A DNA stretch of 64,000 nucleotides, taken from assembly GCF_000003195.3 (NCBI RefSeq), contig NC_012872.2, positions 56,897,695-56,961,694 of the forward strand. The letters run 5' to 3'. Each line of letters opens with the position of its first letter. Positions within the stretch are counted from its first letter, which is position 1. The position numbers and the translations under genes were made by a program. Shown here one piece after another: positions 6,327 through 56,274 of the stretch. Below the pieces are notes generated by a model. It worked only from the letters and a program-made list of their open reading frames with translations. It was not told where the DNA came from and did not search any database. The stretch comes from Sorghum bicolor (Eukaryota > Streptophyta > Magnoliopsida > Poales > Poaceae).

Positions 6327-6476
6327 TACGTCTATCTGTTCGCTGATCTGAAAAGTTAAAATTAAAATTATAGTTGATTGATTTATTATGAGAGAAAAAT
6401 ACTACTTGCTAGCAGAAAAAATACGGCTGAAAAGAGAACTGAACAGTTGTTATGCTCCTCTCGTGGTGATAACTAA

Positions 6477-6932
6477 GTTTTCAAGATTCTCCGTCACATC
6501 GAATCTTGCGGCACATGCATGAAGCATTAAATATAGACGAAAACAAAAACTAATTATACAGTTTGTTTGTAAATCGCGAGACGAATCTTTTGATCTTATT
6601 TGATCTTAGTTAGTTCATAATTGAATAATATTTGTCAAATAAAAACGAAAGTGCTACAGTAGCGAAATCCGAAATTTTTTCGGAACTAAGGCCTTGTTTA
6701 GTTTCCAAAAATTTTCAAGATTCCCCGTCACATCGAATCTTGCGGCACATGCATGAAGCATTAAATATAGACGAAAACAAAAACTAATTACGTAGTTTAT
6801 CTGTAAATCGCGAGACGAATCTTTTGAGCCTAGTTAGTCTATGATTGGATAATATTTGCCACAAACAAACGAAAGTGCTACAGTAGCAAAATCCAAAATT
6901 TTTCTCAAACTAAACAAGGCCTAAACAAGGCC
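6477..6932. mobile_element. Family-A MITE (GGCCTTGTTTAGTT type), interrupted by a second copy
   Basis: The left part (about 6477-6689) is a family-A copy lacking its first 15-20 bases. Its right end, ACAAGGCC, is separated from the body by a second complete family-A copy (6690-6921). The break falls in the TAA of the sequence AACTAA-ACAAGGCC, which is duplicated on both sides of the inner copy. This shows directly that the inner element jumped into the end of the outer one. Confidence 0.8.
6690..6921. mobile_element. Family-A MITE, complete, TSD TAA
   Basis: 232 bp with ends GGCCTTGTTTAGTTT and AACTAAACAAGGCC, flanked by TAA at 6687-6689 and 6922-6924. The internal signature blocks of the family are present: GATTCCCCGTCACATCGAATC, GCACATGCATGAAGCATTAAA, AAATCGCGAGACGAATCTTT and CAAACGAAAGTGCTACAGTA. 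Three-base TWA targets and the end sequence point to a PIF/Harbinger (Tourist-like) origin. Confidence 0.85.
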
Positions 6933-13540: not shown

Positions 13541-13749
13541 ATTAGACTTGGGAGAGGTGAGTTTGGGCTGAACATGGACTGGGCTTGGACGGACTTATCC
13601 CATGCTTGACCCAGGTGGAAAATAATTAGGAAAAATATCTAATTAGTTATTGCTTTGAGACTACTTTGTTACTTTTGTTTCTTTTAATAGTTATAAACAA
13701 AGACACGGATCCCTCACCTACTACTTGACATGACAATTGACAGAATTAA

Positions 13750-13991
13750 GGCTTTGTTTAGTTCCAAAAAAATTTGCAAAATTTTCCAGATTCCCCGTCA
13801 CATCGAATTTTTAGACACATGTATAAAGTATTAAATATAGACAAAAATAAAAACTAATTGCACAGTTTGGTCGGAATTGACGAGACAAATCTTTTAAGCC
13901 TAGTTAGTCCATAATTGAACAATATTTGTCAAATACAAACGAAAAAGCTACAGTGTCCATTTTGCAAAATATTTTGGAACTAAACAAGACC
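13750..13991. mobile_element. Family-A MITE, TSD TAA
   Basis: Ends GGCTTTGTTTAGTTCC and GGAACTAAACAAGACC, flanked by TAA at 13747-13749 and 13992-13994. This copy has the sub-family middle TTTGGTCGGAATTGACGAGAC shared with the copy at 15802-16043. Confidence 0.85.
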
Positions 13992-14164
13992 TAAGCAAAT
14001 TTGGTGCAGCTGAGAAGATGAGAAAGAGCACGACGTGCGGTGACCGGAGTAAATGAGGCTCTTCGGCGCCCGGTCGGCAAACAGTTCGACGCTGGGGATG
14101 GCGGACATGGATGGCCGGCTCGCGTTGGACAAATCGGTTGATAGATACTCATCCTCTATCCTAA

Positions 14165-14396
14165 GGCCTTGTTCAGTTCGCAAAAAATGGTGAAAAACGG
14201 CACTGTAGCACTTTCGTTTTTATTTGACAAACATTGTCCAATTGTAGAGTAACTAGACTCAAAAGATTCATCTCGCGGTTTACAGATGAACTGTGCAAAT
14301 AGTTTTTGTTTTCATCTATATTTAATGCTCCATGCATGTGCCGCAAGATTTGATGTGACGGGGAATCTTGAAAAATTTTGCGAACTAAACAAGGCC
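14165..14396. mobile_element. Family-A MITE, reverse orientation, TSD TAA
   Basis: Ends GGCCTTGTTCAGTTCGC and GCGAACTAAACAAGGCC with TAA on both sides (14162-14164, 14397-14399). The internal blocks are the reverse complement of those in the copy at 6690. Confidence 0.85.
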
Positions 14397-14401
14397 TAAA
14401 T

Positions 14402-15008: not shown

Positions 15009-15801
15009 TACGTACGCATGCATACTACGCATGCATTTTCATGCCCGCTCGCGCTGCACTGTAGGCTGTAGCCCACTACTACATGTGTACGGTACGGTGT
15101 AGAGCCGAGATGTGTCATCGGCGGCGAGCAGAGTCCCGTCTCACGTCCGTAGTTGCTCGACGTACTACGTGGCGCCGTCGTCCACCAGGCACGCCCGCGG
15201 GCCACATTTTCGCCATCGGCCGGCTTTACGTTGCGTGCCGCGCCCCGCGACGCGCTGCAAATTGCGATTTGCCATCGGCGGGGCGGAAACGGAAATCAAT
15301 GCACGAAGCTTTTAAGTGCCCGGCCGGCAGCGGCCCCGCCCATGCTCGGGGAAACCGCAGATCGCTCTCGCTCCCGGGTTTTCCGGCCGGCCGATTGAAA
15401 AACCACAGGGCGATCGCCGATGATCCATCTCCCCCGCCATGCAATGCGCTGCGGGCGGGCGCCGTTTTGTCGTTGGGGGCCGCTCGACACACCACCACCG
15501 CTGATGTTCCAATTGATCGAGGCGCCGGGCTGGCAAAGCGTAGTACGCACGCGCGAGCGCGACCAACCGGCCGTGATCAGCTGGTCACTGGTGACCGGCG
15601 ACGAGGCGTACGTACCGCGCACCCGCGCCGCCCCGCATGTGCCCCGGGGTGGGTACGATCAGTTAATTCGACGCGTCCGCGCCTCGGCTTAGTCGGCACT
15701 CCTCCGCCAATTGATCTTAGATCGGGGCCAATGTTATGTCATGGCACAGTGTCACCGTACCGGCGGAATGGTCATTTCCGGCTATTATGCATTCATACTG
15801 G
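15009..15801. other. GC-rich island without a recognisable gene
   Basis: About 750 bp of CpG-rich sequence among AT-rich MITEs. Open frames occur on both strands, as expected from base composition, and none has motifs, splice structure or a family I recognise. It could be a gene or promoter remnant, a captured fragment or an unannotated transcript. Confidence 0.35.
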
Positions 15802-16043
15802 GGCCTTGTTTAGTTCCTAAAAAAATTTGCAAAATTTTTCAGATTCCCCGTCACATCGAATCTTTAGACGTATGCATGGAGTATTAAATATAGACGAAAA
15901 TAAAAATTAATTGCATAATTTGGTCGGAATTGACGAGACGAATCTTTTGAGCCTAGTTATTCCATGATTGAACAATATTTGTCAAATACAAACGAAAGTG
16001 CTACATGCCTGTTTTGCAAAATTTTTTGGAACTAAACAAGGCC
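15802..16043. mobile_element. Family-A MITE, TSD TGG
   Basis: Ends GGCCTTGTTTAGTTCC and GGAACTAAACAAGGCC, flanked by TGG at 15799-15801 and 16044-16046. The middle is close to that of the 13750 copy, indicating a shared sub-family. Confidence 0.8.
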
Positions 16044-16105
16044 TGGGGCCGATCGTGTAAGGGGCAGTCTCAATGGATATTATTTGTGGTTTCTATCTCT
16101 TTTAA

Positions 16106-19034: not shown

Positions 19035-19157
19035 TGATAAAAGCCTGTAAAGATGTTACGAAGTAGTATGAATTTTAGACAGCTACATGCTAGTCCGCGT
19101 GGCCATACCCGTCGATCGATCATGTACCTCTTGGGAACAATGTAGAGGTGAAAGTTT

Positions 19158-19400
19158 GGCCTTGTTTAGTTCCAAAAAATTTTTAGATTTCGGCATTGTA
19201 TCATTTTCGTTTTGATTTGACAAATATTATCCAATCATAGATTAACTAGGCTTAAAAGATTCATCTCGTGATTTACAGGTAAACTGTGCAATTAGTTTTT
19301 ATTTTCGTCTATATCTAATGCTTTATGTATGCGCTTTAAGATTTGATGTGACGGAGAATCTTGAAAATTTTTTGCTTTTCGAAGTGAACTAAACAAGGCT
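19158..19400. mobile_element. Family-A MITE, reverse orientation
   Basis: Ends GGCCTTGTTTAGTTCC and GTGAACTAAACAAGGCT, with well-preserved inner blocks (TTTCGTTTTGATTTGACAAA, TGATGTGACGGAGAATC). No clean target duplication (TTT left, TGT right). Confidence 0.8.
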
Positions 19401-20182: not shown

Positions 20183-20652
20183 CATGACCCGGTGCAGAGC
20201 GGCTTTTTATTCGTCTTCCGTCCTTGAAAACTACTGCAACGAATCAGCAGGACGTACTGCATGAGGTCTCTCGTCGTGGTGGGCTGGTGGCTCTGGTCAA
20301 CAAAACCCTTAATTACCCAATTGAAGTAGGGCCGAGTGTTCGACGTGGGTTTGTCGGGGCTAACATCCGGTTGTTCCCCTATTAAATTTGTTAATAATTA
20401 AATTTTCACAGACTAAAAATAAGTAGTCCCATAGTCACCTAAGAAATAGCTAAAATAATTTTAACTAACTACAATTTAGCAAATAAAACTAAACAAACCA
20501 TTAGTTGAAGCGATAACTTGGAATCGAGCGGGGTATCACCGTGATGTTTAGAATATTCTGTTAGGGTACTTCCAATACAGAAATCATCATAGTTTTTATG
20601 AACATTAATTGTACTATTACCTAAACATTTTGTTGATGTGACAAGATAGTTA

Positions 20653-20892
20653 GGCCTTGTTTAGTTTCCACCAAAATCTAAAAGGTTTTCAAGATTCCCG
20701 TCATATCAAATCTTGTGGCACATGCATGAAGCACTAAATATAGACGAAAACAAAAACTAATTACACAGTTTGCCTGTAAATCACGAGACGAATATTTTGA
20801 TCCTAGTTAGTCCATAATTGGATAATATTTGCCACAAACAAATGAAAGTGCTACAGTAGCAAAATCAAAAAAAATCTCATCTAAACAAGACC
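20653..20892. mobile_element. Family-A MITE, TSD TTA
   Basis: Ends GGCCTTGTTTAGTTTCC and CATCTAAACAAGACC, flanked by TTA at 20650-20652 and 20893-20895. Inner blocks are well preserved. Confidence 0.85.
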
Positions 20893-20895
20893 TTA

Positions 20896-21734: not shown

Positions 21735-24146
21735 TGTAACACTCTCGTGTTAAGCGAACTAAAACATGACATGTCATCATGAGCATTGCATCGTAAATTC
21801 GTTAAGCACACACTAATGCATTAACTTAAAATAAGTTTAAATTGGATGAATGTGTTTAGGAAGTAAAGTGTGTTTATTTTATGTATGGATGTTTGTTTTG
21901 GAATTTAAAAACCTTGGGTGAAAGTTTTTCCGAAAGGCTTAGGGGGGAAACCCTAGTTTTCAAAACCCTAGATTTGTCCCCTTTTGTGTAATTTAAAAAC
22001 TAAGCAAAATTTGAAGTTGAGTTCAAAAGCAAAGTTGTATATCTTGTCAAGATGTACAACTTTGGTGTTTTGAGTTTTTGAAGTTTCAGTACAAAATTCA
22101 AAGTAATTTTGAAAATACAGATTTCCGAAAAGTGTCCCCTTTTCAAACTTAAATCTCCAATTCAAAATCTGTTTGGAATTTTGAAAAGTGGTCAACATGA
22201 AAGTTGTAGAGCTTGAAAAGTTGAACAACTTTCATGTTGGGAGTTTTTCAAGTTGTTATGCAAAATCAAAAGTAATTTTGGAAACTCTGTTTTGCCCCAA
22301 TTCAAAGTTTGGGATTGAGATTGAATTTCAAAACTGTTTTGGCAAAATCACTAGTTTCCACTCAGAATCAGCTTGGGACACCTAAATATGTTTTGTAGCT
22401 CACAAAATTTTGCACAAGTTTATTTTTGGTGAAAATTTGGCTTCAGTTCATCTTTTGGTCGATTTTTGCAAAACCAGACAAAAAGGGGGGGATAAGCTTT
22501 GGCTCCTGTTCAAGGCGGTGGACACCCGAGTCTGGATCGGTGAATGCCAGCGCATGGTCACCGTTTTACCTCGTCCACGCGCGTGTTCACGTCCGTGACG
22601 ATGTGGAGCAGCTGCTGGCAACCAGAGGCGCGACGTGCCCTTCTCTGCTGCGCTCGTCGACTCCATTTACGCCACCGGGGCACCGAAGCGCAGTACCCCG
22701 TCCCCATCCATATTGGACGTGCTCGATCCTCCTCGTATCAAATTGAGCTGTCCTCTACGTCCGTCACCTCCTTGCGAATCCAGAACACCACCAAGCTCGC
22801 CCCATAACCCTCTCAATCGCCGGGACGTCGCCATCTTCTCCATCTCCGGCCAGAACTGCCGCCGTGGGGCTCTTACCGTGGCCACGGTGTTCTAGTCGGT
22901 ATCACGTTTCCCTGGCAGCTGTTTCGAGTTCCTCTTGTGTTCTAGTAGCTCATGCTCTCTCTCTTTTCCTTTGGGCGCGAACAGAATCGTCGGAACGAGC
23001 TCGCCGGAGCCGGAGCGCCCGCCCGATCGTGCTGTCTCCGTCGCCAGTGACATCCGCTGCTTCCCCGAGCCTTGCAGCGTGAGCACCACCCTTCCCAACC
23101 CCTGTGGAAGCTCGCTAGACCGTCGGTTTGCGCTCTATCGTATCCTGATGGCCGGACGATGGTCGGCCATGGAGGCCGTCCGCCGGTGACGTGGTTGCGA
23201 TAGACAGAGGACGGTAGAGCGCGAGTGAGGGGTAGAGATCGATCCGCGGAAGTGAGGCGGAGCCGATGCGCGCGCGCGCGGAGGCCGAGGACCTCGCTAT
23301 CGGCCGCCGGAGTCGCGGCCGAGCCGCCGCGCGTGTAGGGGATAGAACTGACAGGCGGGGTCTACCTGTCAGTGTCCCGCTGAGAGAGGGCGCGCGCGCA
23401 GAGCGGATGCGGGCCGGAAGTGCGGATGTGGGCCGGTCTGCGGGCCTTTTCACTGCGCTGTTTTCTTTTTCTTTTTCCTTTTTGTTCAAAAGTGATTGAT
23501 GTTTGATTTTATGTATTAAATCATGTGCTGATTCAAAAAATTGTGAAAATTTTTGTATAGATTCCATAAGATGAGTAGAACACATGAAAAATATTAGATT
23601 CCATTTTCTGGCAGTTTGCATATATATGAAAATTGTCCCTGTTTAATAATAAATAAATCTTCCATGATTTTTACTAAATTATGGGTATATCCAAAAATCA
23701 TGAAATTTAATATGTGAGCTTGTGTTAATGTTATTTAGCTTCATGATTAATTTCAGCTCTGTTTGATCAAGTATGCTCTGTTTCTTGATAAAGCTATTTA
23801 AAATGCTTATAAAAGAAATAGAAATAATTAATCTCTTTAGGCTTTGTGTGATATTTTGGATTGATTGGCAACCAGTGATTACTTAGCATAGTATGCTCCC
23901 TGGTTATGGTTTAATTCATGTACATGATACTTATGATATGATAGGTCCACAACATTACTTAATAAAGATAATAAAATTGATTTAGTAATAATCCATGCTT
24001 TGATAGCTAGATTAGTTTGTTTCTCTATCATGAAGGTAAATTGTACTTGAGATAGTCATGCTTATGGTTGTCATCCAAGAACATGTAACCTGTCTTTATC
24101 ATGCCATGAGTATATCATAATCATGCATATGCACTTTTACGTATAG

Positions 24147-24282
24147 AGTACGCTCCGGAAGAATCTGATCCCCAGTGGGTTTCTTCCGAGTTTGTGGATC
24201 CTTCGAGTGTTGTTGAGTTGCCGAACGTCCCCTCCGACCAAGGCAAGCCCCGGACATTAAACCCTATCCTTGTATTTTCATA
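24147..24282 (+). other. Coding-like open segment inside the gypsy LTR (possible exon)
   Basis: After a TATAG at 24142-24146, a frame without ATG reads EYAPEESDPQWVSSEFVDPS and continues through a Pro/Val-rich stretch to a stop near 24281. The hydrophilic, non-repetitive composition is unusual for LTR sequence. It could be an exon of a spliced leader transcript or chance. I do not recognise the peptide. Confidence 0.25.
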
Positions 24283-25222
24283 AAGTTATTTATATCACTT
24301 GAGTTAATATGATGCATTAGGTGAATAGGAGTTGAGTGAATCCTATTTGCTGCATTATCTACCTTGATGATTTCAATATTAACCTTGATACTTGTTTTAT
24401 GAAAATACTTAGTATGCTTAGCCTTGCTTATTAGATAGGTTTTCAAATGAGAAAGTTTGAGGGTTGTTGTGGAATACTTTTATGGTCAATAATGTTTCAA
24501 TTTGAGACCGGTCGGTGGACTTGCTTTAAGAATGGAGTCTTAAAGTAGTGTCTCCAACTGTGTCGATTAAGGACCGTACCGTTGTTGGCCTGTTGTGATT
24601 GAGACCTTTGAGTACAGCCCACATGCGGCGGTAAGCCTTACCTATAGCTATTCCGATACTTGAGAACGGCTAACCGCGTACTGGGAGTGGAAAGATGGCG
24701 AGAGTAGCGTGTACCCACCTTACGGATCTGAGATGACCGGGAAACATCTAGATTGGCTGTAGGATGGTGGTGTACTGTACTCTCGGGTGACGCTGGACCC
24801 GTTCTTGTATGGGAGGATCTATAGAAAAGGTTGACATATGCAAGATTAAGTTCTACATATGTCGTGTGGTACTGAATCCCCAGCTGGGTTTAATCGATTC
24901 GAATCGCCGTGTTTCCTCGGACATGGAACCTCAATCCTCACACCATCATCGTAGTAATAAGTGAATCTTTGGTATAAGAAAGAGGTGTTTTGCTTATGAA
25001 AGTTGGATAATGATACTGGCTAGTTATGAGTGATAATCTTGAGTTAAAACTTGAAATTAAGCTTTACTCGTAGTAAGCTTTTATGCAAAAGAAATACTTG
25101 ATCTTGTTAAAGCTTTACCTTGAATCCCCATAGCCTGCATAACTGAGTCTTCACCTCTTTTATAATCGGTTAAGTCTTGTTGAGTACTTTTGTACTCAGG
25201 GTTTTATTAACCCATGTTGCAG

Positions 25223-25305
25223 GTGAATCTCTTGATTATCCTTTTGATGGTCATGGGTATTTTACTCTTGTGGAGGAGAGTGATGATGATGAACCTGATG
25301 TGTGA
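25223..25305 (+). other. Second coding-like segment in the gypsy LTR, behind a TTGCAG acceptor-like site
   Basis: Directly after CCCATGTTGCAG the sequence reads GESLDYPFDGHGYFTLVEES followed by DDDEPDV and a stop (TGA, about 25303). A strong plant-type 3' splice site followed by an acidic C-terminus suggests a terminal exon. Start and partner exon were not identified with confidence. Confidence 0.3.
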
Positions 25306-25653
25306 CCTTGGGCAAAGTAAAAACTTGTTGTGTGATCTATGGTTTATGTAATATAAAGTTCCGAAGCTTTTATGTATCAAAAACTTATGGTTTGTAAACT
25401 ATGAACTTAAGTTTCAATCTATGTTATGTAACCTTTCCGCTTTTACTCTGACTTCTCTTATCTATGAAATGTTGTAATACTGTGATGCTTGATGAGGGAA
25501 TTCCTGAAAAGAATGTTACGTGGATGATTCGGGTTTCCCGAGGACACCCGACAGACTTCTTGAGTCATTTGGAACTCGTGCACAACGATCAGAAGTCTTT
25601 GGGACAATGATGTGTGCATGTGGGCCACTTAATTCAGGAGGTTCTGCCACAGC

Positions 25654-25668
25654 TGGTATCAGAGCAGG
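25654..25668 (+). other. Primer-binding site for initiator tRNA-Met
   Basis: TGGTATCAGAGCAGG follows the LTR end by two bases. It matches the complement of the 3' end of plant initiator tRNA-Met, the usual minus-strand primer of plant LTR retrotransposons. It fixes the direction of the element as plus strand. Confidence 0.92.
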
Positions 25669-26140
25669 TTTCCCTTAGAAAGTATAGCAGTATTCATTTG
25701 AAAATTTCAAAAGCTTTTGAGTCAAACCAATTTTCAAATTAGTTTGAGTCCAAATTGCTTCTAAGCTTGTCTTATGCTTCGAACTTGTCTCAGTTCATTC
25801 TTTAGACTTATCCTTCTATCTAAATGGATATGTTTTTAGTATAATTATGGTGATATTTATATACAAGGAACAATGCTTATAATGTTATAATATTGCCCTA
25901 TTTATGAAAAGAACGTTTATGCACTTTTATATCAAGTGCCTAACTTAAAGTTAATTATTTGTTTGATGTATGCTTGGTTCGTAAGTACGTTTCATGCATC
26001 ATTATGGATAACATGTAATTAACTTTCCTCCTTAAAGTTGTTAATAATTAGAGGTAATATGTCCATCTAATTGTAAAACTCTATCCTTTAACCTTGGAAC
26101 ATATATAGTTCTAATATTCAAAATAAAAATATTTTGGCAG
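25669..26140 (+). other. Untranslated leader of the gypsy element
   Basis: 470 bp between the primer-binding site and the first ORF, AT-rich, with many stops. It ends AAATATTTTGGCAG directly before the ATG at 26141, which looks like a plant 3' splice site. Confidence 0.5.
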
Positions 26141-26608
26141 ATGGCTCGTACCCGCCTAACCGCTCGCAAGTCCACCGGAGGTCGTGTCCCCAGGCACCAG
26201 TTGGCATCAAGGGATCCGCCACCCTCCGACAGCAGCGACAGCAGCACTGATAACTCCAGCGACGGAAACGGGAGTGACACCAGCGGAGGTCCTCCTTCGC
26301 CAAGGACCTACAGGCTTATGAAGAATGATCTGCGCCTGATGCTCACTGACAACATCAATATGGAAGTTCAGCTGTACCATATGGCTGGGTATGTGGTCAC
26401 TCTTGAGGCCTATGCCAACACCCTCCATGAGGAAGTGCACCAGCTGCAGGATGCCCTCAATCCACCCGAGGCTCCTGAAGCAGCAGAGGAAGGACCAGTT
26501 GTCATCCAAGTGGATAGTGATACTTCTGAGGATGAAGCAAAGGAACCAGGAACTCCCACTCCAGATGAGGGTGTTACCACCAGTGAGTCGGAGATGGATG
26601 ACGACTAG
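26141..26608 (+). CDS. Extra gypsy-element ORF with a histone H3 tail-like N-terminus
   Basis: 155 residues, ATG directly after a CAG. Residues 2-24 follow the histone H3 tail: 16 of 23 positions are identical, including ART at 1-3, TARKSTGG at 6-13, PR at 16-17 and QLA at 19-21 (H3 numbering). Lysines 4, 14 and 23 are Arg and lysine 18 is His, so only Lys9 remains. A Ser/Asp-rich linker (25-53) follows, then a predicted helix-rich middle (58-106, heptad-like LYHMAGYVVTLEAYANTLHE). Next comes VVIQV-DSDTSEDE (120-132), like a SUMO-interaction motif with CK2-type sites, and an acidic end. There is no histone fold. It lies between the primer-binding site and gag-pol of a Tekay/Del-like element. 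The function is unknown; binding or competing for H3K9 readers or writers is inference. Confidence 0.8.
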   Translation: MARTRLTARKSTGGRVPRHQLASRDPPPSDSSDSSTDNSSDGNGSDTSGGPPSPRTYRLMKNDLRLMLTDNINMEVQLYHMAGYVVTLEAYANTLHEEVHQLQDALNPPEAPEAAEEGPVVIQVDSDTSEDEAKEPGTPTPDEGVTTSESEMDDD

Positions 26609-26832: not shown

Positions 26833-28950
26833 ATGTCTGCTAACAACCATGGAGCTAGTTCGTCCCAGGGTGGGGATGATTTTCCTAATGCACCACCCGT
26901 TCCACCCTCTTTGGCTGATGCAATTGCAGCATTGGTCAATGCAACAACTCTGTTAGCACAAAACCAGAATGTTGGTCAGCGTGGCCGTGGTCGCCATAAC
27001 CGAGAGGAAACCACATATGTTGACTTCACAGATACTCGTCCCCCAGTTTTCACAAAAGCTGATGAACCTCTTGAAGCTGAGGATTGGCTTCGCACTATGG
27101 AGCAAAAGTTCAGTCTCATCAACTGTACTGAAACCCAGAAGCCAGTTTTCGCCGCTCAGCAGCTGAGAGGAGCAGCAGGAGTTTGGTGGGAAAACTTACT
27201 GGCTGTTCAACCAGCCCGTCACCGAATCACTTGGGGAGAATTCAAGGAAGCCTTCAGGGCTCATTACATTCCCAAGGGAGTTATGAAAATGAAGCTCGAA
27301 GAGTTCTTAGCTCTCCGTCAGGGGGATGACTCAGTCATACAGTATATTGGAAAGTTTAATCATCTGTCCCAATATGCAATTGAGCAAGTCAACACTGATG
27401 AAAAGAAGAAGGATTGTTTCATGAGAGGCTTGAATACAAAGCTTCAACTGATGATGGCATCATGTGGCAATATATCTTATCATGAGGCAGTGAACATTGC
27501 TATCTCCAGTGAAGAAAAGAACCGCAAACATAAGGAGGCTAAGAAGAAGAAGGGGTTTGTCTCAGGGTCTGGGTCATCTGGCGGCAACAAGAAGCGCCAG
27601 AGGCTCATATATCATCCAGCTCAGCAATTCCGCCCATCTTATCGTCCTTCTTATCAACCGCCTCAGCAGCAGAATGTGCAGAGGAGTTTTGCAAGACCGA
27701 CAATGCCGTTCAATGTTCAACGTCAGCCGAATGTTCCTGCCATTCGTCCGCCAATGCCACAAGCTGCAAACAACCCTTGTTACAATTGTGGGAAGAGTGG
27801 ACATTTTTCTCGTGAATGTCCATATCCCAGGCAAAATGTTCCAAATGTCAACGCACCAAGGCCAGTTGGAAATCAACAAACAAATCAGAACAAAGGTCAT
27901 GCCCAGAATCCGCAGAAGGGTAAGGGTACTCAGAAAACAGAAAGGGTTTTCCATACTCAAGTTGAAGCTATACCTGAGGGAGAGCCAGTGATGCTTGGTA
28001 TGTTCCCTGTTGCCCAACACCCAGCACTTACACTTTTTGATTCTGGAGCATCACATACTTTCATAAATAGAACATTTGCGGAAAAGCATAATATACCTAT
28101 TGGTGCAACCAAAGATGAGTTCTTTATACAGTCACCTGGGGGTCGACTATGCACTAAGGAAATGGTACATCAGGTGCCAATAGACTTGGGTGGATATATA
28201 TTTCCAACATCCATGATAGTGTTAAAAGATCCAAGTATAGATGTGATCTTGGGTATGAACTGGATGAGCCAGAGAGGTGCAGTTATAGACACCTTAAATA
28301 GAACTATCAGGGTCAACTTACCTAATAGCAAGTCTCAACTTCTTATCCATCTTCCTACCCTTAAGAGAGCAGTTGAGCAAGTGTGTGCTATCTCTGTCAA
28401 GGAAATCAAGGATATTCCAGTGGTCTATGAGTTTCCTGATGTGTTTCCAGAAGATTTACCTGGTTTGCCACCGGATCGTGATGTGGAGTTTGAAATAGAG
28501 CTCAAGCCAGGGACAGCACCAATATCTAGAAGAGCTTATAGAATGCCACCAAAAGAATTAGCAGAATTGAAAACTCAGTTGCAAGAATTGATGGATAAAG
28601 GTTTTATTCGACCTAGTTCATCACCATGGGGTTGTCCGGCAATCTTTGTGAAGAAAAAGGACCATACCTTGAGGTTATGTGTGGACTATCGTCCTTTGAA
28701 TGAGGTAACAATCAAGAATAAGTATCCTTTGCCCCGTATTGATCTTCTCTTTGATCAACTAACTGGTGCTAAGGTATTTTCAAAGATAGACTTGAGATCT
28801 GGGTATCATCAAATCAAGATTAAACCAAAAGATGTTCCAAAAACGGCATTCACTACCAGATATGGCTTGTATGAATATCTGGTCATGTCTTTTGGTCTGA
28901 CAAATGCCCCAGCACATTTTATGTATCTGATGAATTCAGTGTTCATGCCC
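26833..28950 (+). pseudogene. Ty3/gypsy gag-pol, 3' truncated inside reverse transcriptase
   Basis: An uninterrupted frame of about 706 element-derived residues. The gag domain (about 85-205) includes [12 protein letters not shown] and the FRAHYIP motif. A basic, Gln/Pro-rich linker leads to a CCHC zinc knuckle ([14 protein letters not shown], from 316). The aspartic protease has DSGASHTF at 403. The reverse transcriptase contains [20 protein letters not shown] (about 615-634) and the first catalytic Asp in [15 protein letters not shown] (D653), but stops homology at MNSVFMP before the second catalytic block. RNase H, integrase, chromodomain and the 3' LTR are missing. The frame runs on to 29034 in unrelated GC-rich sequence. 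The lack of stops suggests recent truncation. Confidence 0.92.
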
Positions 28951-29105
28951 GGTGCACACGGCGCGGAGCGTGCGCCCCATTGTACGAGGCAAAGCGCTCC
29001 CGTAGGCGAGGCGTGCATGGTGGTGCCGTGGTGATAAATTCGAATCATCATCAATCCAATTAACCATTTGTTGCTTTTAATATACTCTTCATTAGATTTG
29101 GATAT
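28951..29105. other. Unrelated GC-rich join after the gypsy truncation
   Basis: Right after the reverse transcriptase homology ends, base composition changes sharply (GGTGCACACGGCGCGGAGCG). It then returns to AT-rich DNA by 29050. This marks a deletion or rearrangement breakpoint. Confidence 0.55.
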
Positions 29106-31720: not shown

Positions 31721-31912
31721 CCGCACCCCCCACCCACCCATACACACAGTCTCTTCATTTGCAGCGAGAAAAATTCCTGCTGACCTAGAGCAATAACCAC
31801 CATCTCCACAAACAGGCCAGCACACAACAGGTAGCTATATGCCGGAATTAACCTAAACGATCAGAGCAGCAAGGTGTTACTACTGTATAATTCGAAAAAG
31901 AGGATTGGATAT

Positions 31913-32635
31913 GGTGTTTCCTGCCATCCTCCCCAAGGTAGCTCCACGATGGCTCTTCACGTTCTACCGCGCCGCCAGGAAGCTCAGGCACCATGCCTTC
32001 TAGCTCTACTACCGTAACACCGCCGTCATCGCCAAGCCGCCACCGCCGCCGTCTCACAGCAGCAGGCTGCCGCCATCGCTGCCACCGCCTTCAATACCGA
32101 TGCCGGCTCCGCCATCCCTAACGCTACTAGGCGGACAGTCGTGCCCAACATGCACAACGCCCTTTTGTGCTCCATCATGCTCTTCCCCTACTTCATGCTC
32201 GTGGTGTGCAAAGGCGGCAGCCTTCTCTGTGCCATACTGCAGCACTGCATGTTCCCTCTTGTTTGGGCACTCGGGGAGCAGTGTCGCGGTGCCAGCGCTG
32301 GCGCCGACATCTGGGTGATGGCGTTCGTCACCTTCACGGGGCTCACACCCAAGGACATGGACCTCGTTGTCCGTGTCGTGCTGCCCAAGCACTACATGAA
32401 GCAACTCAACACTGTGGTGTACGACAGCCTGTGACTCCCGGCTGGAAGGAAGGTGGCGGTGACCAGCGTGCCGCGGTGATGTCCGAGTGGTTCCTCAATA
32501 GGAGTACATCGCCGCTGGCGTGGTGGTCAGCCTGGAGCTGTAGCACATCACGATCGGCCGATTGCAGTACTTCACGGGGTTGTTGTCGGGTCCTGCGACC
32601 ACGGGGCCGCCAGAGCTGAGGTAGAAGGTGTTCAA
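31913..32635 (+). pseudogene. GPAT exon-1 copy, left part, inactivated
   Basis: Nucleotide match to exon 1 of the intact gene (48462-49283), from the start codon to about codon 245. It is dead. CAG-to-TAG changes lie at 32001-32003, 32541-32543 and 32623-32625, TGG-to-TGA at 32432-32434, a net 10-bp deletion near 32055, and a 2-bp gain near 32495. The match ends near 32635 and resumes at 44350, with a CACTA transposon and other DNA between. No exon 2 accompanies this copy, so it arose as a partial duplication. Confidence 0.9.
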
Positions 32636-33273
32636 GAGTTTGCTAAAAACACTTGCTATCCTTGTTTGTTTTTGCAAAACATGAAAAATCATGGTCCAAC
32701 ACTTTATTAACTGGCTTGGTATACTTTGAGAAGTTGGTATTCTTGAGCTAAATCCTCGCATATTTGCGCGTGTGTTTAGCTTGCCATCCTGCATAGGACC
32801 GCCACCTGCTCATCTTCGGCGCCAATTAAATACATCTGTTCATAACCGGCTATGCCTAGCGGCGAGGAGACGCCCTGCACTGCATCATTTTGGCCGACAC
32901 GTGATCCCATCAAAATGTATCAAATTGTTTGTCACATCAACTCTGATGGCCGGTAAAGGCCGGCAAGGAATGTCACATGTCCTCATTGCGCATAGGACAT
33001 GTTTGATTACACTCAAAAATTCTAAAGTTTACAAAATTATTTGTCACATCAAGTCTTGCAACACATGCATTTAAATATAGATAAAAAATAACTAATTGCA
33101 CAGTTTACCTATAAATCACGAGATAAAATTTTTAAGCCTAGTTACTCTATAATTAGACAATATTTGTCAAATACAAATGAAAAAACTATAGTGTCAAAAT
33201 CCAAACAAAATTTGCATCTAAACAGGGCCATAGATTGAAAGTTCCCGAGCAAAAGCAGCTTTGCATACACTAT
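32636..33273. other. Inserted DNA between the GPAT pseudogene and the CACTA element, with a family-A MITE
   Basis: Not part of GPAT and not part of the CACTA element. It includes a diverged family-A MITE (about 32994-33229, GGACATGTTTGATTACAC to CATCTAAACAGGGCC). The rest has no recognisable identity. Confidence 0.5.
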
Positions 33274-37930: not shown

Positions 37931-38293
37931 ATTTTTCAGTTTCTTATTTATTTATGCATACAATAATTAGATTAATGTTGTTAATTGCATAGTAAATAGA
38001 ATAATAGGTTTTAATTTGTTAAAAAATAATAGTTCCATTTCTTTTTGTCTAATTGGTTACATAATCAATTTGGAAACATAAAATCTTTTCATCACTTATA
38101 TTAACAAACTTAAATATGAAAAATAATTAGTATTTTGTTAATGCAAAAATATATTATTTAATTTTAATATCTTAAAGCAGATGTTTTTGATAGAATAATT
38201 TGTTTGTGCAATATTTAAACGTAAATTTTGTTTATTTACCATCATTTATCTCCAAAATCATGATATATGTGATATTCACCATTACATCGGATT

Positions 38294-39620
38294 ATCTCTA
38301 ACAACTTTGTATTCAAATTTTTTTCATTTCAAGTCATCAAATGGGTCATTTGACCAAGTTTGACCAAAGTCAAAGCATTGGTTTTTAGAAACACACACTT
38401 TGACCGAACCCTATATGGTCCCAAATGGAAAAGTAATGAATACAAAGTTTGTTGCACTCATCAAGTTCTAGATTTTTTCTAATGGTCAACTTTTCTTTTG
38501 GAAAAGTTTGAACCACTCAATTTTGAATTTTGATAGAATTCATAGCCACGCATCGGTTTTCAGAACCCTAGATGGTCTCGAACGGAAAAGTCATGAATAC
38601 CAATATTGTTCCACTCATCAAAATCTACATTTAATATATAGACCATTTTTGTATTTGACAAAGTGTTGCGAAGGTGTAGTTCAAAATCCACAATTGACAC
38701 ATGTAGTTTCATATAGTTTGTGTGAGATTCAAGAATTGGTGGGTATTGTGGACTTAAACTTTCTCAAATGGAAAAATTGTCTATATAAAAAGTTTAGATC
38801 TTAATGATATCTAACAACTTGGTATTCAAAATTTTTTTCATTTTAAGTAATTTAGTATGTCATTTGACTAAGTTTGACCAATACCCGTCTTGGATTTTGA
38901 ACAAATGTGCTTAGGATTGGCTCAAATTTATTCAAATGGAAAAATGGACAATATATCAAATGTAGATCTTGATGATCTCTAACAACTTTGTATTCAAATT
39001 TTTTTCATTTCAAGTCATCAAATGGGTCATTTGACCAAGTTTGACCAAAGTCAAAGCATTGGTTTTTAGAAACACACACTTTGACGGAACCCTATATGGT
39101 CCCAAATAAAAAGGTAATGAATACAAAGTTTGTTACACTCATCAAGTTCTAGATTTTGTCTAATGGTCAACTTTTCTTTTGGAAAAGTTTGAACCACTCA
39201 ATTTTGAATTTTGATAGAATTCATAGCCACGCATCGGTTTTCAGAACCCTAGATGGTCTCGAACGGAAAAGTCATGAATACCAATATTGTTCCACTCATC
39301 AAAATCTACATTTAATATATAGACCATTTTTGCATTTGACAAAGTGTTGCGAAGGTGTAGTTCAAAATCCACAATTAACACATGTAATTTCATATAGTTT
39401 GTGTGAGATTCAAGAATTGGTGGGTATTGTGAACTTAAACTTTCTCAAATAGAAAAATTGTCTATATAAAAAGTTTATATCTTGATGATATCTAACAACT
39501 TGGTATTCAAAATTTTTTCATTTTAAGTAATTTAGTTTGTCATTTGACCAAGTTTGACCAAGTTTGACTATTTTTACATTTGACAAATAATTGACACATC
39601 TCTTATAATAGCAAACTTAA
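38294..39620. repeat. Tandem direct repeat, two units of about 681 bp
   Basis: Unit 1 starts at about 38294 and unit 2 at about 38975. They share TAACAACTTTGTATTCAAAT, TTGACCAAGTTTGACCAAAG, CACGCATCGGTTTTCAGAAC and AAAGTGTTGCGAAGGTGTAG with few differences. The match fades near 39580. The block lies between the internal repeat cluster and the end of the transposase gene. A 98-residue frame is repeated in both units but shows no domain. Confidence 0.9.
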
Positions 39621-44438: not shown

Positions 44439-44700
44439 GTTCGTGTGTAGCATATTTTTCTTAACTTATCATAGAGATAGAGTAATTGACCATATAATAC
44501 GGGAACCTATTTTCAAGGTATTAATTTGTAGTAACACCGTTAACGTCTCAAGGATAACCACCAACTACAAAAGCATAATCGGAGTAGGAGGATTGTTGGG
44601 CAAAAACGCAGCGGACAAAGACATATACTGGTCGAATGTCAAAGTAACAACAACATAGTATACCGTCAAAGTACTGTAGCAATGGGACTTCCTAGAATTA

Positions 44701-44937
44701 GGGCTTGTTTAGTTCGCAAAAATTTTCAAGATTCCCCGTCACATCGAATCTTTGGTCGTATGCATGGAGTATTAAATATAGACGAAAATAAAAACTAATT
44801 GTACAGTTTATCTGTAATTTGTGAGATGAATCTTTTGAGCCTAGTTACTCCGTGATTGGACAATGCTTGTCAAATAAAAACGTGAAACTAAGGCCTTGTT
44901 TAGTTCTTAAAAAAAATTTTGCCAACTAAACAAGGCC
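44701..44937. mobile_element. Family-A MITE, TSD TTA proven by an empty site
   Basis: Starts GGGCTTGTTTAGTTCGC and ends GCCAACTAAACAAGGCC, flanked by TTA (44698-44700, 44938-44940). The GPAT intron copy at 49538-49550 has the uninterrupted sequence AGAATTAGATGCGTGAA. The right third contains about 40 bp copied from the flanking DNA at 44943-44985. Confidence 0.85.
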
Positions 44938-44955
44938 TTAGATGCGTGAAACTAA

Positions 44956-45387
44956 GGCCTTGTTTAGTTCTTAAAAAAATATATAATTTTTTTTCAGATT
45001 TTTCGTCACATCGAATTTTATGACACACGCATGGAACATTAAATATAAATAAAAAATAATTAATTGCATAGCTTGCCTGTAATTTGCGAGACGAATCTTT
45101 TGAGCCTAGTTAGTTTATGATTAGACAATATTTGTCAATACGAACGGAAGTGCTACAGTCTTTATTTTGCAAAAAAAAATGGAACTAAGGTCTTGTTTAG
45201 TTGGAGAAAACTTTTGACTTTGGCTACTATAACATTTTTGTTTGTATTAAGTAATTATTATCCAATCATAGATTAACTAATGTCAAAAAATTCGTCTCGA
45301 AAATTACTTCGTACATATGTCCAATGGTTTAATGTGACGGAGAATTTTTTTAAAAAAATGGAAACTAAACAAGGCTTAAACAAGGCC
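44956..45387. mobile_element. Family-A MITE interrupted by another family-A copy, TSD TAA
   Basis: The outer copy runs 44956-45188 and resumes as ACAAGGCC at 45380-45387. TAA flanks it at 44953-44955 and 45388-45390. The insert is the copy at 45189-45376, placed in the TAA of the outer right end. Confidence 0.8.
45189..45376. mobile_element. Family-A MITE, short variant, nested, TSD TAA
   Basis: Starts GGTCTTGTTTAGTTGG, ends GAAACTAAACAAGGCT, with TAA at 45186-45188 and 45377-45379. At 188 bp it has lost part of the middle. Confidence 0.8.
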
Positions 45388-45571
45388 TAAGATCACAAAC
45401 GGGTGTGTCTGTGAATTGATAGCGCATAGAGCAGCATAAATATCCTTTGACCTGAAGGCTCTAGTTAACCGGAATCTGAATGGTGCATCTATCGATCGCA
45501 TCCAGGTGGACCTGATGAGCAGGCTCTCACCTGTTAGCAATAAACGAAGGCGATACATGTGAATTGACTGA

Positions 45572-45803
45572 GGCCTTGTTTAGTTCGCAAAAATTTTCAA
45601 GATTTTCCGTCACATCGAATCTTTGGTCGCATGCATGGAACTTTAAATATAGACGAAAATAAAAACTAATTTCACAGTTTATCTGTAATTTGTGAGATAA
45701 ATCTTTTGAACCTAGTTACTCTATGATTGGATAATGTTTGTCGAATAAAAACGAAAGTGCTACAGTAGCCAAAACCCCAAATTTTTGCCAACTAAACAAG
45801 GCC
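45572..45803. mobile_element. Family-A MITE, TSD TGA proven by an empty site
   Basis: 232 bp, ends GGCCTTGTTTAGTTCGC and GCCAACTAAACAAGGCC. TGA occurs at 45569-45571 and 45804-45806. The duplicated intron at about 50510-50540 reads GAATTGACTGAAGGATCTCA without the element and with a single TGA. Confidence 0.95.
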
Positions 45804-45867
45804 TGAAGGATCTCATTCCCATTTAACCACCGTCTACAGTAGTATTCTCTTGAACATCACTAAGTGT

Positions 45868-47335: not shown

Positions 47336-47400
47336 ATTTGTGGATGGGGAGTACACTTACCACGTTCTCGATCGCGGCAGGCTGGCAGCCCTTATATAAT

Positions 47401-47600
47401 GGCCTTTAGTTCTAAAATTTTTTAGGAAATCGATACTGTAACATTTTCGTTTGTATTTAACAAATATTGTCCGATCATGGACTAACTAGGCTCAAAAGAT
47501 TTGTCTCGTCAATTCCGACTAAACTGTACAATTAGTTTTTATTTTCGTCTAAATTTAATACTCTATACATACGTTTAAAGATTCGATGTGACAGAGGCCA
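47401..47600. mobile_element. Family-A MITE, partial, reverse orientation
   Basis: Starts GGCCTTTAGTTCTAAAATT and keeps TTTCGTTTGTATTTAACAAA and GATTCGATGTGACAGAGGCC. Short deletions affect both ends. Confidence 0.65.
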
Positions 47601-47670
47601 GTATATACGTAAAAGGTAAAAACTCATGGATTCTGGACCAGTACACTGCTATGCTAGTACCGGAGTACTA

Positions 47671-47913
47671 GGCCTTGTTTAGTTCACCCTGAAAACCAAA
47701 AAGTTTTCAAGATTCCCCGTCACATCGAATCTTGTCGCACTTGCATGAAACATTAAATGTAGACGAAAACAAAAACTAATTACACAGTTTAGCTGTAAAT
47801 CACAAAACGAATCTTTTGATCCTAGTTAGTCTATGATTGGATAATATTTGTCACAAACAAACGAAAGTGCTACAGTACCGAAAGGTTTTCACTTTTAAGA
47901 ACTAAACAAGGCC
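47671..47913. mobile_element. Family-A MITE, TSD CTA, just upstream of the GPAT gene
   Basis: Ends GGCCTTGTTTAGTTCACC and AAGAACTAAACAAGGCC, with CTA at 47668-47670 and 47914-47916. It lies about 280 bp before the probable TATA box of the intact GPAT gene and may affect its regulation. Confidence 0.85.
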
Positions 47914-48038
47914 CTAGTACTAGCATGCACATCCAGGCATTCCAGCCTCGGGCGCCGGAAGGACACAAACACCGCATGCAGGGGCAGCACCAGGGGGGAG
48001 GGAACATTGCATTGCGCACGCCATTGAAGCGCATTTAC

Positions 48039-48196: not shown

Positions 48197-48461
48197 ACAC
48201 CCCCACCCTCCACACGTCTCTGGCACTGCCAGCTTCGTTTCGTCGCCCACACCCCTCCTCCCCCACCCACACACGTACAACAGTCTCTTCATTTGCCGCA
48301 ACAAAATACAACAGTCTCTTCATTTGCCGCAACAAAAATAGAAACCCACAAAAGCTCCGGTGACCTAGATCAATAACCACCATCTCCACAAACAGGCCAG
48401 CACGCAGTAGGTAGCTATATGTCGTAGACGATCGGAGATACCTTGAAAAAGAGGACCAGAG

Positions 48462-51400
48462 ATGGTGTTTCCTGTCATCCTCCCCAAGGTGGCCGCACGA
48501 TGGCTCTTCACATTCTACCGTGCCGCCAAGAAGCTCAGGCGCCACGCCTTCCAGCTCTACTACCGCAACACTGCCGCCATCGCCAAGCCGCCGCCGCCGT
48601 CGTCCTCTGCCGTCTCGCAGCAGCAGGCTGGCGTCGCCGCTGTCGCCGCCTTCAATCCCGACGCCGGCTCCGCCATCCCTAACGCCGCCGGTCGGACCAT
48701 CGTGTGCGACATGCACGGCGCCCTGCTGCGCTCCACCGCGCTCTTCCCCTACTTCATGCTCGTGGCGTGCGAGGGCGGCAGCCTTCTGCGCGCCATGCTG
48801 CTGCTCTGCGCCTTCCCTCTCGTCTGGGCGCTCGGGGAGCAGCGCCGCGGCGGCGCCGGCGTCCGGGTGATGGCGTTCGTCACCTTCGCGGGGCTCACGC
48901 CCAGGGACGTCGACCTCGTGGCCCGCGCCGTGTTGCCCAAGCACTACATGGAGCAGCTCAACGCGGTGGTGTACGGCAGCCTGTGGCTCCCGGCCAGGAG
49001 AAACGTGGCGGTGACCAGCGCGCCGCGGGTGATGTCCGAGTGGTTCCTCAAGGAGTACATGGCCGCCGACGCGGTGGTCGGCCTCGAGCTGCAGCACGTC
49101 ATGATCGGCCGACGACGGTACTTCACGGGGTTGCTATCGGGTCCTGCGACGACGGGGCCGTCGGAGCTGAGGCAGAAGGCGCTCAGAGAGGCGTTAGGCG
49201 CCGAGGACGACCTCATGGCCGACGTGGGCATCATCGGCCACTCCACCAGCCCGCTCGACCAGCTCTTCGTCCCCTACTGCAAGGTTCGTGCATACTACAT
49301 GAGATAGAGTGATTGACCATATAATACGGGGACCTGTTTTCAAGGCATTAATGTGGAGTAACACCGGTTAACGTCTCAAGCATAGTAATAACCACCAACT
49401 ACAAAAGCATCATTAATCGGAGTAGGATGATTGTTGGGCAAAACGCAGAGGCAAAAGACGTACTGGTAATGTCAAAGTAACAACGACATATACCGTCAAA
49501 TTAAAACAAATACTGTAACAATGGGACGTCCTCAGAATTAGATGCGTGAAATTAAGGCCAGTCTCAATGAAGTTTTATTAGGCAAGTCTAGAGCGCCATG
49601 TCAACAAAACTGCACTTTTTACATGAAACGAAGAGGAGAGAGAAGGAAGTAGTTTTACTATGATGAAACCCCGCGGGCGTTGTTTCTCACGCGGCGAAAC
49701 GGGATGAAATCTCCACTGAGGGCTAAATCGTTTCACCATCTTGCATGTGATCCAATTATTTTGCAGTAATTAAATGCTTTGACCAGCTTAGGAAACGTTA
49801 AGGTGAAACTCATGTATTGTGGAGATTGTTTTATTATTCGTTTCATTGATGCCCTGTCAGCGGATTTGTTTTGGAAACAGTGCATTGAAACGAGCCACTG
49901 AGACTGGTCTTAGAGTTCCGTAGATACTAAATATTGATGATGTGACACCATATTAATGAAGAGAGATATGATAAAAATTCCATAAGAGTAGAGAAAGTTT
50001 TATAGGGATGAAACTCTTCTTTATTGTTTCTAAAATATTCGTTTGTTGGAAATTGAGTGATGGAACTCCCACTGAAGATGTCTTAGGCTGTCTCCAATAG
50101 GAGACCTATTTGGGAACGTAGGTTTCCAACACAATACCTATAGCCTCCAACAGACTACCCATACAGAAGACCCATTTTGGATATCAGGAGAGGCATAACC
50201 CAAATTTGGGTATTCTCTCTCCTCGAGACCCATTTACAGAGAGTGTTGTCTTTTAGATCTTGTTGTTGGAGAAGACTAAAAATAGGTATGGAACCTTTTA
50301 CATGTAGCGTTACCTAAAGAACAAATAGGTCTTGTATTTTGGTGACGATTTATCTTAAGACGAAGGGGTGTGTCTGAGAATTGATAGCGCATAGACCAGC
50401 ATAAATATCCTTTGATCTGAAAGCTCTAGTTAACTAGAATCTGTGTGGTGCATCTACCGCATGAAGGTGGACCTGATGAGCAGGCTCTCACGTGTTAAAC
50501 GAAGGCGATACATGTGAATTGACTGAAGGATCTCATTCCCAATTAACCACCGTCTACAGTAGTATTCCCTTGAACATCACTAAAAGCAAATTTAATAATA
50601 CAGCTCGCTTGTTGGCTCTAAGATTACTTGCAGCCTTCTTACAGTCTATCCAACAATAGTTAGCTATTCACTATTAGTACATGACTGACTCAGTTATCTT
50701 TCTCATAAAGTTTCTTGGTTTCTGTGCCTTATTTAGTTCACCCCAAAAATCAAAAAGTTTTCAAAATTCTCCGTCACATAGAATCTTGCGACACATGCAT
50801 GAAGCATTAAATATAGACGAAACCAAAAACTAATTACACAGTTTGCCTGTAAATTACGAGACGAATCTTTTTATCCTAGTTAGTCTATGATTAGATATTA
50901 TTTGCTACAAACAAACGAAAGTGCTACAGTAGCGAAATCCAAAAAGTTTTCACATCTAAATAAGATCTTACAACCTGCTTCTCCTCTCTCTTCTTTCTTT
51001 TCTTCTCCATCTCAACATTTAACCGGTTTTAAGCACATGCAAAATCAATGGGCATATTTCACATTCCGAGGAGTTAATTACTTCTAAAGTTGACTAGATA
51101 TGTACTCCCTCCGTCCCCAAATACTGCTATTTCTAGCAGATTTTAGACAGATTAGTGTGGCAAACAAAAGACTATCTACTCTCAATTAATTTGGATTCCA
51201 CCATTTAATCATGCACGTTAAACCATGGTTCTCTGGTTCCAACGAGCTGCATTTAATGTCAACTAAACAGACTTTAACAATTACCATGCACCAAAGTACT
51301 ACTCCCTAGAAGAAATTAAATGGGCTGGTGGACCATGAAAGTTCCGAGGAGAAATTAATGGGCTGGTGGACCGAGTATGCTAGTAGAAATAGCAGTACAT

Positions 51401-54805: not shown

Positions 54806-55269
54806 AGAGCGCTGCAACAGCTAGCTGGGTGTGTTTTTATTATGCATACTTACATGCATGCTGGGTAAATTATTGTTAAAAAAGCTAGTTACTGTAATTT
54901 GCATGGCATCAGTAATGGATCTTTTGGTTCCGTTGTGTAAAGGAAATTTGATTAGCTGCAAAACTAATCAAATACTACTATAGATGCTTGGATTTAAATT
55001 CAAATCAAATTAGTATATATTTCGTCTGATCGTTTTGCTGAATCATTTGCAACCCTCGTCAAATTATTTACAGTATCAACCCCTTCCAGCTAATTGTACA
55101 ACGGGTACAGGAAACCTTCAAACAAATTGTTTAGGGAGTATAATATATAATAAGACGTAGATAAAACTAACCAAAATTTGAGGCAATTCCACCCCCTTAA
55201 CAGAGCCCACCACTCCAAGAGAGATAAAAGATTATACCGAATCTAAACTCTCTCTCACTCACTCACTTA
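54806..55269. other. 3' flank of the GPAT gene
   Basis: Probable 3' untranslated region and spacer, AT-rich, no coding signal. Possible polyadenylation signals are weak (AATGGATC, AATTATTG). Confidence 0.4.
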
Positions 55270-55510
55270 GGCCTTGTTTAGTTCCAAAAATTTTTGGGTG
55301 GGTACACTGTAGCACATTCATTTTTATTTGATAAACATTGTCTACTCATGGAGTAACTAGGCTCAAAAGATTCTTCTCGTGATTTACAGGCAAACTGTGT
55401 AATTAGTTTTTGTTTTTATCTATATTTAATACTCTATATATGTGCCGCAAGATTTGATATAACGTGGAATCTTGAAAAGTTTTTAGTTTTTGGGTGAACT
55501 AAACAAAGCC
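55270..55510. mobile_element. Family-A MITE, reverse orientation, TSD TTA
   Basis: Ends GGCCTTGTTTAGTTCC and GTGAACTAAACAAAGCC, with TTA at 55267-55269 and 55511-55513. Confidence 0.85.
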
Positions 55511-55601
55511 TTACTCACTAATGATTTTGTAACCAACTAGGTGATGAGCAAGTGAGAGCGTGATAAGACTACTATATTTAAGTATTCGGAAATACTAAGA
55601 C

Positions 55602-56060: not shown

Positions 56061-56274
56061 CAAGCCCTAAACAAGGCCTAAATGAAATGAAAACGAGCAG
56101 GATGGAAGGCTTCAGCCTACACACTCTGACGCCCCGCTGCCCACACAACCCACCCCTCGATGCTCGCTGCCCGCACACACACACTCTCTCTCTCTCTCTA
56201 GCGAGCACTTCCCTGGCGCCCAGACACGTCCACATGCCCACGCTTGTGCCCCACCGCCTCTCTCGCGCGCGGCC

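Follow-up and report, generated by a model that had tools for sequence, protein, structure and literature searches.

The window analysed here, a stretch of 64,000 nucleotides of the Sorghum bicolor genome, contains the 5' part of an LTR retrotransposon in which a short additional ORF (ORF0) precedes gag and begins with a segment resembling the N-terminal tail of histone H3. The features of the element are as follows.

21735..25651, plus strand: 5' LTR of about 3.9 kb (TG...CA), both ends inferred, the start from the match of the window to the sister copy L099 and the end from the adjoining primer binding site
25654..25665, plus strand: primer binding site TGGTATCAGAGC, an exact match
25981..26140, plus strand: possible leader intron of 160 nt, 73% A+T, from a GTAAGT donor to a CAG/ATG acceptor
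26141..26608, plus strand: ORF0 (5' additional ORF), 155 aa
26141..26212, plus strand: H3-like tail, ATG and 23 codons, delimited by phmmer, a tail profile, residue comparison and the extent of the H3 exon
26168..26170, plus strand: codon of the H3 Lys9 equivalent, AAG in the window and Lys in all 70 sampled genomic tails
26300..26458, plus strand: predicted single long helix, residues 54-106, with a conserved LHEEVH block at residues 95-100 (alignments and structure model)
26833..29034, plus strand: ORF1, encoding gag, zinc knuckle, protease and the start of reverse transcriptase (RT), truncated in RT (Pfam Retrotrans_gag, zf-CCHC, RVP_2, RVT_1)

The start of the LTR was set at the point from which the window aligns with the stretch of L099 lying 3' of the polypurine tract (88% over 1350 columns), and the primer binding site is presumably of the initiator tRNA-Met type. 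The RVT_1 profile was matched only over positions 1-140 of 205 in ORF1, and no 3' LTR was found within the window; thus, the window copy looks like a truncated remnant. As in elements with a Tekay-type ORF0, the extra ORF lies between the primer binding site and gag on the plus strand, and the LTR, with its inferred ends, exceeds 3 kb. An earlier note on this DNA had called the reading frame a retrotransposon ORF, which agrees with the position of ORF0 upstream of a Tekay-type gag. The chromodomain is missing from the window copy, which is truncated, and the sister copy L099 on C10 encodes an integrase end with SH3_Tf2-1 and a Chromo (PF00385) domain, the latter above its cut-off. Compared by eye, the frame of this chromodomain fits one Tekay motif in the available part of PMC3350952 and differs at one place from the other motif.

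On the basis of layout, LTR and sister-copy chromodomain, the element fits the Tekay lineage with ORF0 as described in the accessible portions of Gao et al. 2012 (PMC3485330) and Neumann et al. 2019 (PMC6317226). The ORF0 or 5' aORF of the grass elements Retrosat2, RIRE3, RIRE8 and FRetro3 likewise lies between the primer binding site and gag in elements with long LTRs and a two-ORF layout, and encodes a fast-evolving protein, often with a long helix (PMC3485330, PMC11728184, both seen in part). The published accounts differ, ORF0 being regarded as divergent and possibly enzymatic (PMC3485330) or as DRBM-like (PMC11728184); an H3-like tail is not mentioned in the excerpts of either, and the main texts of PMC3485330, PMC7264820 and PMC11728184 do not contain the word "histone" at all. 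Among the titles and opening lines of abstracts listed in literature searches, no plant retrotransposon ORF was described as having an H3-like tail.

Identity and origin of the H3-like tail

The ORF0 protein begins with MARTRLTARKSTGGRVPRHQLASR. Its first residues are identical to H3 residues 1-23 at 16 of 23 positions and are co-linear with them from the initiator Met, as the earlier note had claimed; the next best 23-residue word in the six frames of the window has 9 H3 matches. In a phmmer search of ORF0 against PDB sequences, histone H3 was on top (E 5.1e-5), and the best 60 of the 131 PDB matches were histone H3, H3-based chimeras, an H3-like peptide and a chain named Cse4. A tail profile built from 13 hand-chosen representative tails, that of the window among them, matched full-length H3 with 1.8e-10. 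A chance match was rejected in view of these E-values and the gap between 16 and 9 matches. The differences from H3 include K4R, K14R, K18H and K23R, while K9, S10, T11 and the following GG are retained, exactly as first described. The absence of a histone fold after the tail was also correctly anticipated: no histone domain was found among Pfam matches to ORF0 at E<=10, and the predicted model consists of a disordered tail, one helix (residues 54-106) and a disordered acidic end. Residues 1-40 have pLDDT block means of 51-68 and no secondary structure in the model, which predicts an exposed, disordered tail.

The host genome (709,120,108 bases, 846 contigs; host loci are numbered L###) contains eight H3 genes without an intron across the 80 residues searched and three intron-bearing H3 genes with a complete tail exon, L091, L092 and L094. 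In these three, the first coding exon is exactly ATG and 23 codons, followed by AAG/GT, and this is also the extent of the ORF0 tail. A fourth intron-bearing H3 gene, on C4, has GT at the same place, but carries a stop and an aberrant start. The H3-like genes L086/L088 and L090 have no GT directly after codon 24. The tail of L086/L088 (C1:57740634-57740962) reads MARTKSTARNSTGGKAPRKQLVKK and has Asn in place of Lys9, opposite to what ORF0 shows. Because plant H3.1 genes are not known to contain introns, L091, L092 and L094 are called H3.3-type here.

The window copy shares identical codons with L094 at 12 of the 16 shared residues, compared with 8 for each of L091 and L092 and 3-6 of 16 for the eight others, making L094 the intron-bearing gene closest in codons. 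Random synonymous codons for the window tail would give a mean of 4.1-4.7 matches (P 4e-5 with uniform usage and 1e-4 with element usage, before correction for 11 genes). The copies L014 and L009 share 10 of 17 and 10 of 16 codons with L094, respectively. The signal is weaker in a second ORF0 subfamily, where L055 shares 8-9 of 18 codons with intron-bearing H3 genes versus 4-7 with others. The dS of the window tail is 0.61 to L094 versus 1.34-1.88 to the second subfamily, and a faster clock in transposon lineages, or separate captures, would explain this difference. The sequence atgcag/ATG is present at the start of L094, while CAG/ATG is not found in L091 or L092 and occurs also in L075, one of the eight intron-less genes. 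CAG stands directly 5' of the tail ATG in 62 of the 70 sampled genomic copies of ORF0, and all 5 of the GG-type proteins that extend further upstream have Gln before the tail Met. In the DNA 5' of the ATG, ORF0 and the H3 genes showed no similarity to each other.

The same exon extent in three H3 genes, together with the codon closeness and the CAG/ATG of L094, argues for exon capture rather than convergence. These sequence comparisons suggest that the ORF0 tail is very probably the captured first coding exon of an H3.3-type gene. This likely origin is a point absent from the earlier note.

Conservation of the tail and of Lys9

At least 99 long ORF0 matches were found in the host genome; of these 99, counted by eye, 96 span residues 1-155 and 4 have one internal stop. 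There are further tail-only matches, those inspected belonging to the second subfamily. All these counts are lower bounds. The tails were compared at 70 distinct places, comprising 48 long matches (the window's own included) and 22 tail matches. The choice followed similarity and was not random: it took in the 8 best matches, 40 lower-ranking ones and the 22 tail matches. Three rows repeating a place were dropped from the original 73. In L017, which is among the 70, the match begins only at residue 5, and the first codons were counted as they stand. Position 9 is Lys in all 70 tails, and it is the sole tail lysine in 69. R4, R14, H18 and R23 are nearly fixed (67, 68, 70 and 67 of 70), so the conservation of the K9 pattern proposed as a check is seen in the host genome. 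Among the 73 rows, three repeats included, T6 and A7 do not vary, and 72 have R8. Some H3 residues lost in the window are kept in other genomic copies, namely Q5 in 6, A15 in 17 and T22 in 2 of 70.

Relatives of ORF0 were also common among proteins. The first search with ORF0 gave 66 proteins, a profile search gave 3094 clusters at E<=0.01 among 7995 scored, of which the 120 best were listed, and a search with a second-subfamily member gave 62 proteins. As scored by the tail profile, the tail is present in 185 of 228 sequences (227 proteins and that of the window), and the tail-less sequences inspected are gene predictions whose start lies further downstream. The aligned relatives (sets of 18 and 38, some of them partial) share a layout in which the H3-like tail is followed by a variable middle, then by a helix containing LHEEVH or LHEEIH and, in most of them, by an acidic end; a frequent homologue type carries a GPxG insertion. 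DNA of ORF0 relatives was not found in viral contig, genome contig or plasmid collections. Proteins of the family in metagenome collections bear bacterial-style names, such as "chromosome segregation ATPase" and "glutamine synthetase type III".

The second subfamily (L102:22-1065; L101:17-820; P0175, P0178, P0214) has a conserved extra domain between the H3-like tail and the coiled coil, with the motif GMPTLLWRVL..REPRYYW..VGIEAVVP..WVYESRG..ASRAAFAVLRD, and the genomic copy L102 shows its complete layout upstream of gag. In a low-confidence model, the added domain is predicted to have a helix-strand-strand-helix order reminiscent of a dsRNA-binding domain. No such domain was found among the Pfam matches or the best 60 of 131 PDB matches, all of which are H3 via the tail, and two members have a weak Pfam match to PAF ("histone like domain") with a best E of 0.2, far below cut-off. 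According to the available text of PMC11728184, 5' aORFs of maize and sorghum Tekay elements resemble a DRBM protein in structure (TM 0.35-0.37). This is in keeping with the added domain of the second subfamily, although our own model of that domain is poor.

The tail peptide is under purifying selection. Between the window copy and 7 of the 22 second-subfamily tails, dS was 1.34-1.88 and dN 0.064-0.088, with 13-14 synonymous differences at about 20 sites and 3-4 nonsynonymous differences at about 48; omega was 0.03-0.07 in 7 of 7 pairs, which are not independent because each contains the window copy. This indicates that the peptide is conserved, and not the DNA as such. The earlier note had asked for dN/dS below 1, as found here. 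The contrary patterns that it named, a tail missing from all related elements or neutral variation of its lysine changes, were looked for and not found, the tail being present in most relatives and the peptide under purifying selection.

Among 10 divergent representatives, mean identity is 73% in the tail, 58% in the LHEEVH block and 22% in the remainder without the block, and the tail exceeds the remainder in 45 of 45 pairs. The tail and the C-terminal LHEEVH block are the slowest-evolving parts of ORF0. Site rates estimated on a tree of 23 representatives, a thinned subset of 159, have a median of 0.38 within the tail and 1.11 outside it (Mann-Whitney P 2.5e-11, sites treated as independent). 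Within the first subfamily, the window copy was compared with 10 of the 47 other copies. The omega values of tail and rest, respectively, were 0.09 and 0.49 for L014, 0.13 and 0.42 for L015, 0.26 and 0.58 for L011, 0.50 and 0.56 for L010, 0 and 0.51 for L016, 0.20 and 0.47 for L018, 0.20 and 0.29 for L022, 0 and 0.48 for L026, and 0 and 0.27 for L030. The tail value is thus the lower one in 9 of 9 pairs, with few changes in each; for the tenth copy, L009, the tail omega is 0.21 and the rest was left out owing to an in-frame length difference. Fisher tests of tail against rest in two of these pairs gave P 0.067 (L014) and P 0.019 (L016). In one second-subfamily pair the tail was not slower, with pN/pS of 0.062/0.097 in the tail (3 nonsynonymous and 2 synonymous changes) versus 0.035/0.268 in the rest (17 and 37).

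Lys9 is kept in 23 of the 23 thinned representatives and in 181 of 185 homologous sequences, and it is the only H3 lysine kept throughout; in the sampled host copies it is nearly the sole tail lysine. The statement that only Lys9 survives thus holds for 69 of the 70 host-genome tails but is not general. Among the 185 homologous sequences, K4 occurs in 12, K23 in 5 and a Lys at position 5 in 141, and a strict rule of Lys9 alone for the whole family was rejected because of these relatives. Special protection of Lys9 over Lys5 was not seen within a clade of 146, where 6 losses of Lys5 stand beside 4 of Lys9. In most of the 185 sequences, the residue at position 14 carries no charge. The replacements fall preferentially on lysines: 4 of the 7 differences from H3 in the window tail are at lysines (P 0.017), as are 4 of 5 in the tail of L055, which keeps 18 of 23 H3 residues (P 0.0027).

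Conservation is not confined to Lys9. In the thinned set, P16 and H18 are also present in 23 of 23, with T6 in 21, A7 in 18 and R8 in 20; in the wider set of 185, A7 is found in 145 and R8 in 168. T6, A7 and R8 are invariant only among the hand-chosen tails and nearly so in the host genome. P16, H18, Q19, L20 and A21, well away from Lys9, show about equal conservation. Since H18 and P16 are as conserved as Lys9, the constraint reaches beyond the Lys9 site.

Possible roles of the tail

Residues 6-9 of H3 are held by chromodomain readers, and replacement of lysine by arginine keeps the charge and blocks lysine modification. The reading we prefer, with little more than even confidence, is that ORF0 is a mimic of the H3 tail centred on Lys9 that would use a captured H3.3-type exon to engage host H3K9 writers or readers. 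The start of ORF0 may go back to an ancestor of these Tekay-type elements that acquired the initial coding exon of an H3.3-type gene with introns. After the capture, four of the five tail lysines would have been replaced in the host-genome lineages, three by Arg and one by His, while Lys9 and its neighbours stayed. The remainder of ORF0 may present the disordered tail on a long helix, possibly as an oligomer, with an added domain in one subfamily. Lys9 would then be essentially the one position of the tail open to methylation or reading. During expression of the element it might engage H3K9 writers or readers, possibly of the SUVH/KYP or CMT type, which would be either diverted from the element or brought to it. 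Counting against a Lys9 mimic, the change from Lys to Arg by one transition is easy and keeps the charge.

In the strongest alternative, the captured tail would provide ORF0 and its cargo with a nuclear import signal, a histone-chaperone or importin signal, or a basic peptide for binding nucleic acids, the chemistry of Lys9 being irrelevant. H3 tails bind importins, the three Arg replacements preserve charge, and residues 16 and 18-21, far from Lys9, are conserved about equally; a predicted NLS in the 5' aORF protein of sunflower Tekay is described in the available part of PMC11728184. A plain charge signal, however, leaves unexplained the change of K18 to His in all 70 genomic tails and the mostly uncharged position 14 in the 185 sequences, and in the genomic sample Lys9 alone among the tail lysines is never replaced. 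We regard this alternative as possible but doubtful.

The tail might also be a ligand for the element's own integrase chromodomain, tying ORF0 to the integration complex. The earlier note had raised this idea, and the part concerning the domain stands, as the integrase end of the sister copy has SH3_Tf2-1 together with a Chromo domain that exceeds its cut-off. Tekay chromodomains are, however, of type II and lack most residues of the methyl-lysine cage (PMC6317226 and PMC3350952, as far as available), so that binding of ORF0 to the integrase of its own element is not implied. In the accessible parts of PMC6317226 and PMC12786077, type II chromodomains have no known partner, although they target a fused fluorescent protein to heterochromatin; the ORF0 tail would thus be a candidate partner. 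Against this, non-grass Tekay-related elements have no ORF0 or an ORF0 of no amino-acid similarity, yet the chromodomains of sunflower Tekay are of type II (PMC3485330, PMC11728184, sections seen). Such a ligand role appears improbable.

Viral H3 mimicry is usually short and convergent, and convergence or chance instead of descent from H3 has to be weighed for ORF0 as well. The similarity of viral proteins to the tail is at the level of a motif in the portion of PMC10208167 available, synonymous sites of the ORF0 tail are near saturation against most H3 genes, and CAG/ATG is shared with an intron-less H3 gene. The comparison with the host H3 genes makes this explanation very improbable: the co-linear match runs over 23 residues from the initiator Met and ends at the exon end of three H3 genes, CAG/ATG precedes most sampled tails, and three quarters of the shared codons are identical to those of one H3 gene. 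A recent, functionless histone fragment carried along is hardly credible, although transposons often capture gene fragments and the window copy is truncated in RT, since the tail is conserved far beyond the rest of ORF0 and shows high dS with low dN between subfamilies, unless the exon was captured separately by each.

Returning to the mimic of a Lys9-centred H3 tail, the known histone mimics are mostly short motifs of viral proteins. Influenza NS1 and the ARKS motif of SARS-CoV-2 ORF8 resemble ORF0 in having an H3-tail-like sequence in an accessory protein (PMC10208167, PMC10833455, in the parts available). Unlike them, the tail of ORF0 is 24 codons long, apparently captured from an H3 gene, located at the extreme N-terminus, and conserved across subfamilies. 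The claim of mimicry by ORF8 is disputed according to the excerpt of PMC10833455, so motif arguments alone are insufficient. The H3-like motifs of G9a/GLP also place an H3-like Lys motif outside H3, and theirs is methylated and bound by HP1 proteins; in contrast to ORF0, these are host enzymes and the motif is not the N-terminal tail of a transposon protein (PMC9768651, available sections). A further plant LTR retrotransposon in which host-like coding sequence became established, possibly to counter host control, is the Ty3/Gypsy type of orchids that captured an AlkB-type m6A demethylase, although this is an enzyme domain and not a histone tail (PMC9289625, PMC12786077, both partly available).

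If a retrotransposon has, as it appears, captured a histone exon in which most other tail lysines were replaced while Lys9, the lysine marking silenced transposons, was kept under selection, this would be evolutionary evidence for H3K9 recognition as a contact point between transposon and host. The element would then copy a chromatin signal that serves to silence it. ORF0, for which PMC3485330 found no obvious function, would also gain a testable role. In a wider and rather unlikely form of the idea, the ORF0 of grass Tekay elements might be a composite anti-silencing protein, with the Lys9-reduced H3 tail acting against the H3K9/CMT-SUVH loop and the DRBM-like domain of one subfamily against the small-RNA arm. 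If so, both arms of plant transposon silencing would be addressed by one ORF0.

Other repeats in the window

Several other repeats were observed in the window. A repeat of about 240 bp, probably a MITE family, occurs in many copies in both orientations that are about 70-90% alike, in the following regions.

6475-6925, 13743-14399, 15797-16045, 19155-19399 and 20648-20895: regions of the repeat of about 240 bp
44694-45807, 47399-47929, 50726-50970 and 55265-56063: further regions of the same repeat

A dispersed direct repeat of about 0.9 kb with 79% identity lies at 31740-32638 and 48306-49190, and a local duplication of 592 bp with 97% identity lies at 38290-38881 and 38971-39561.
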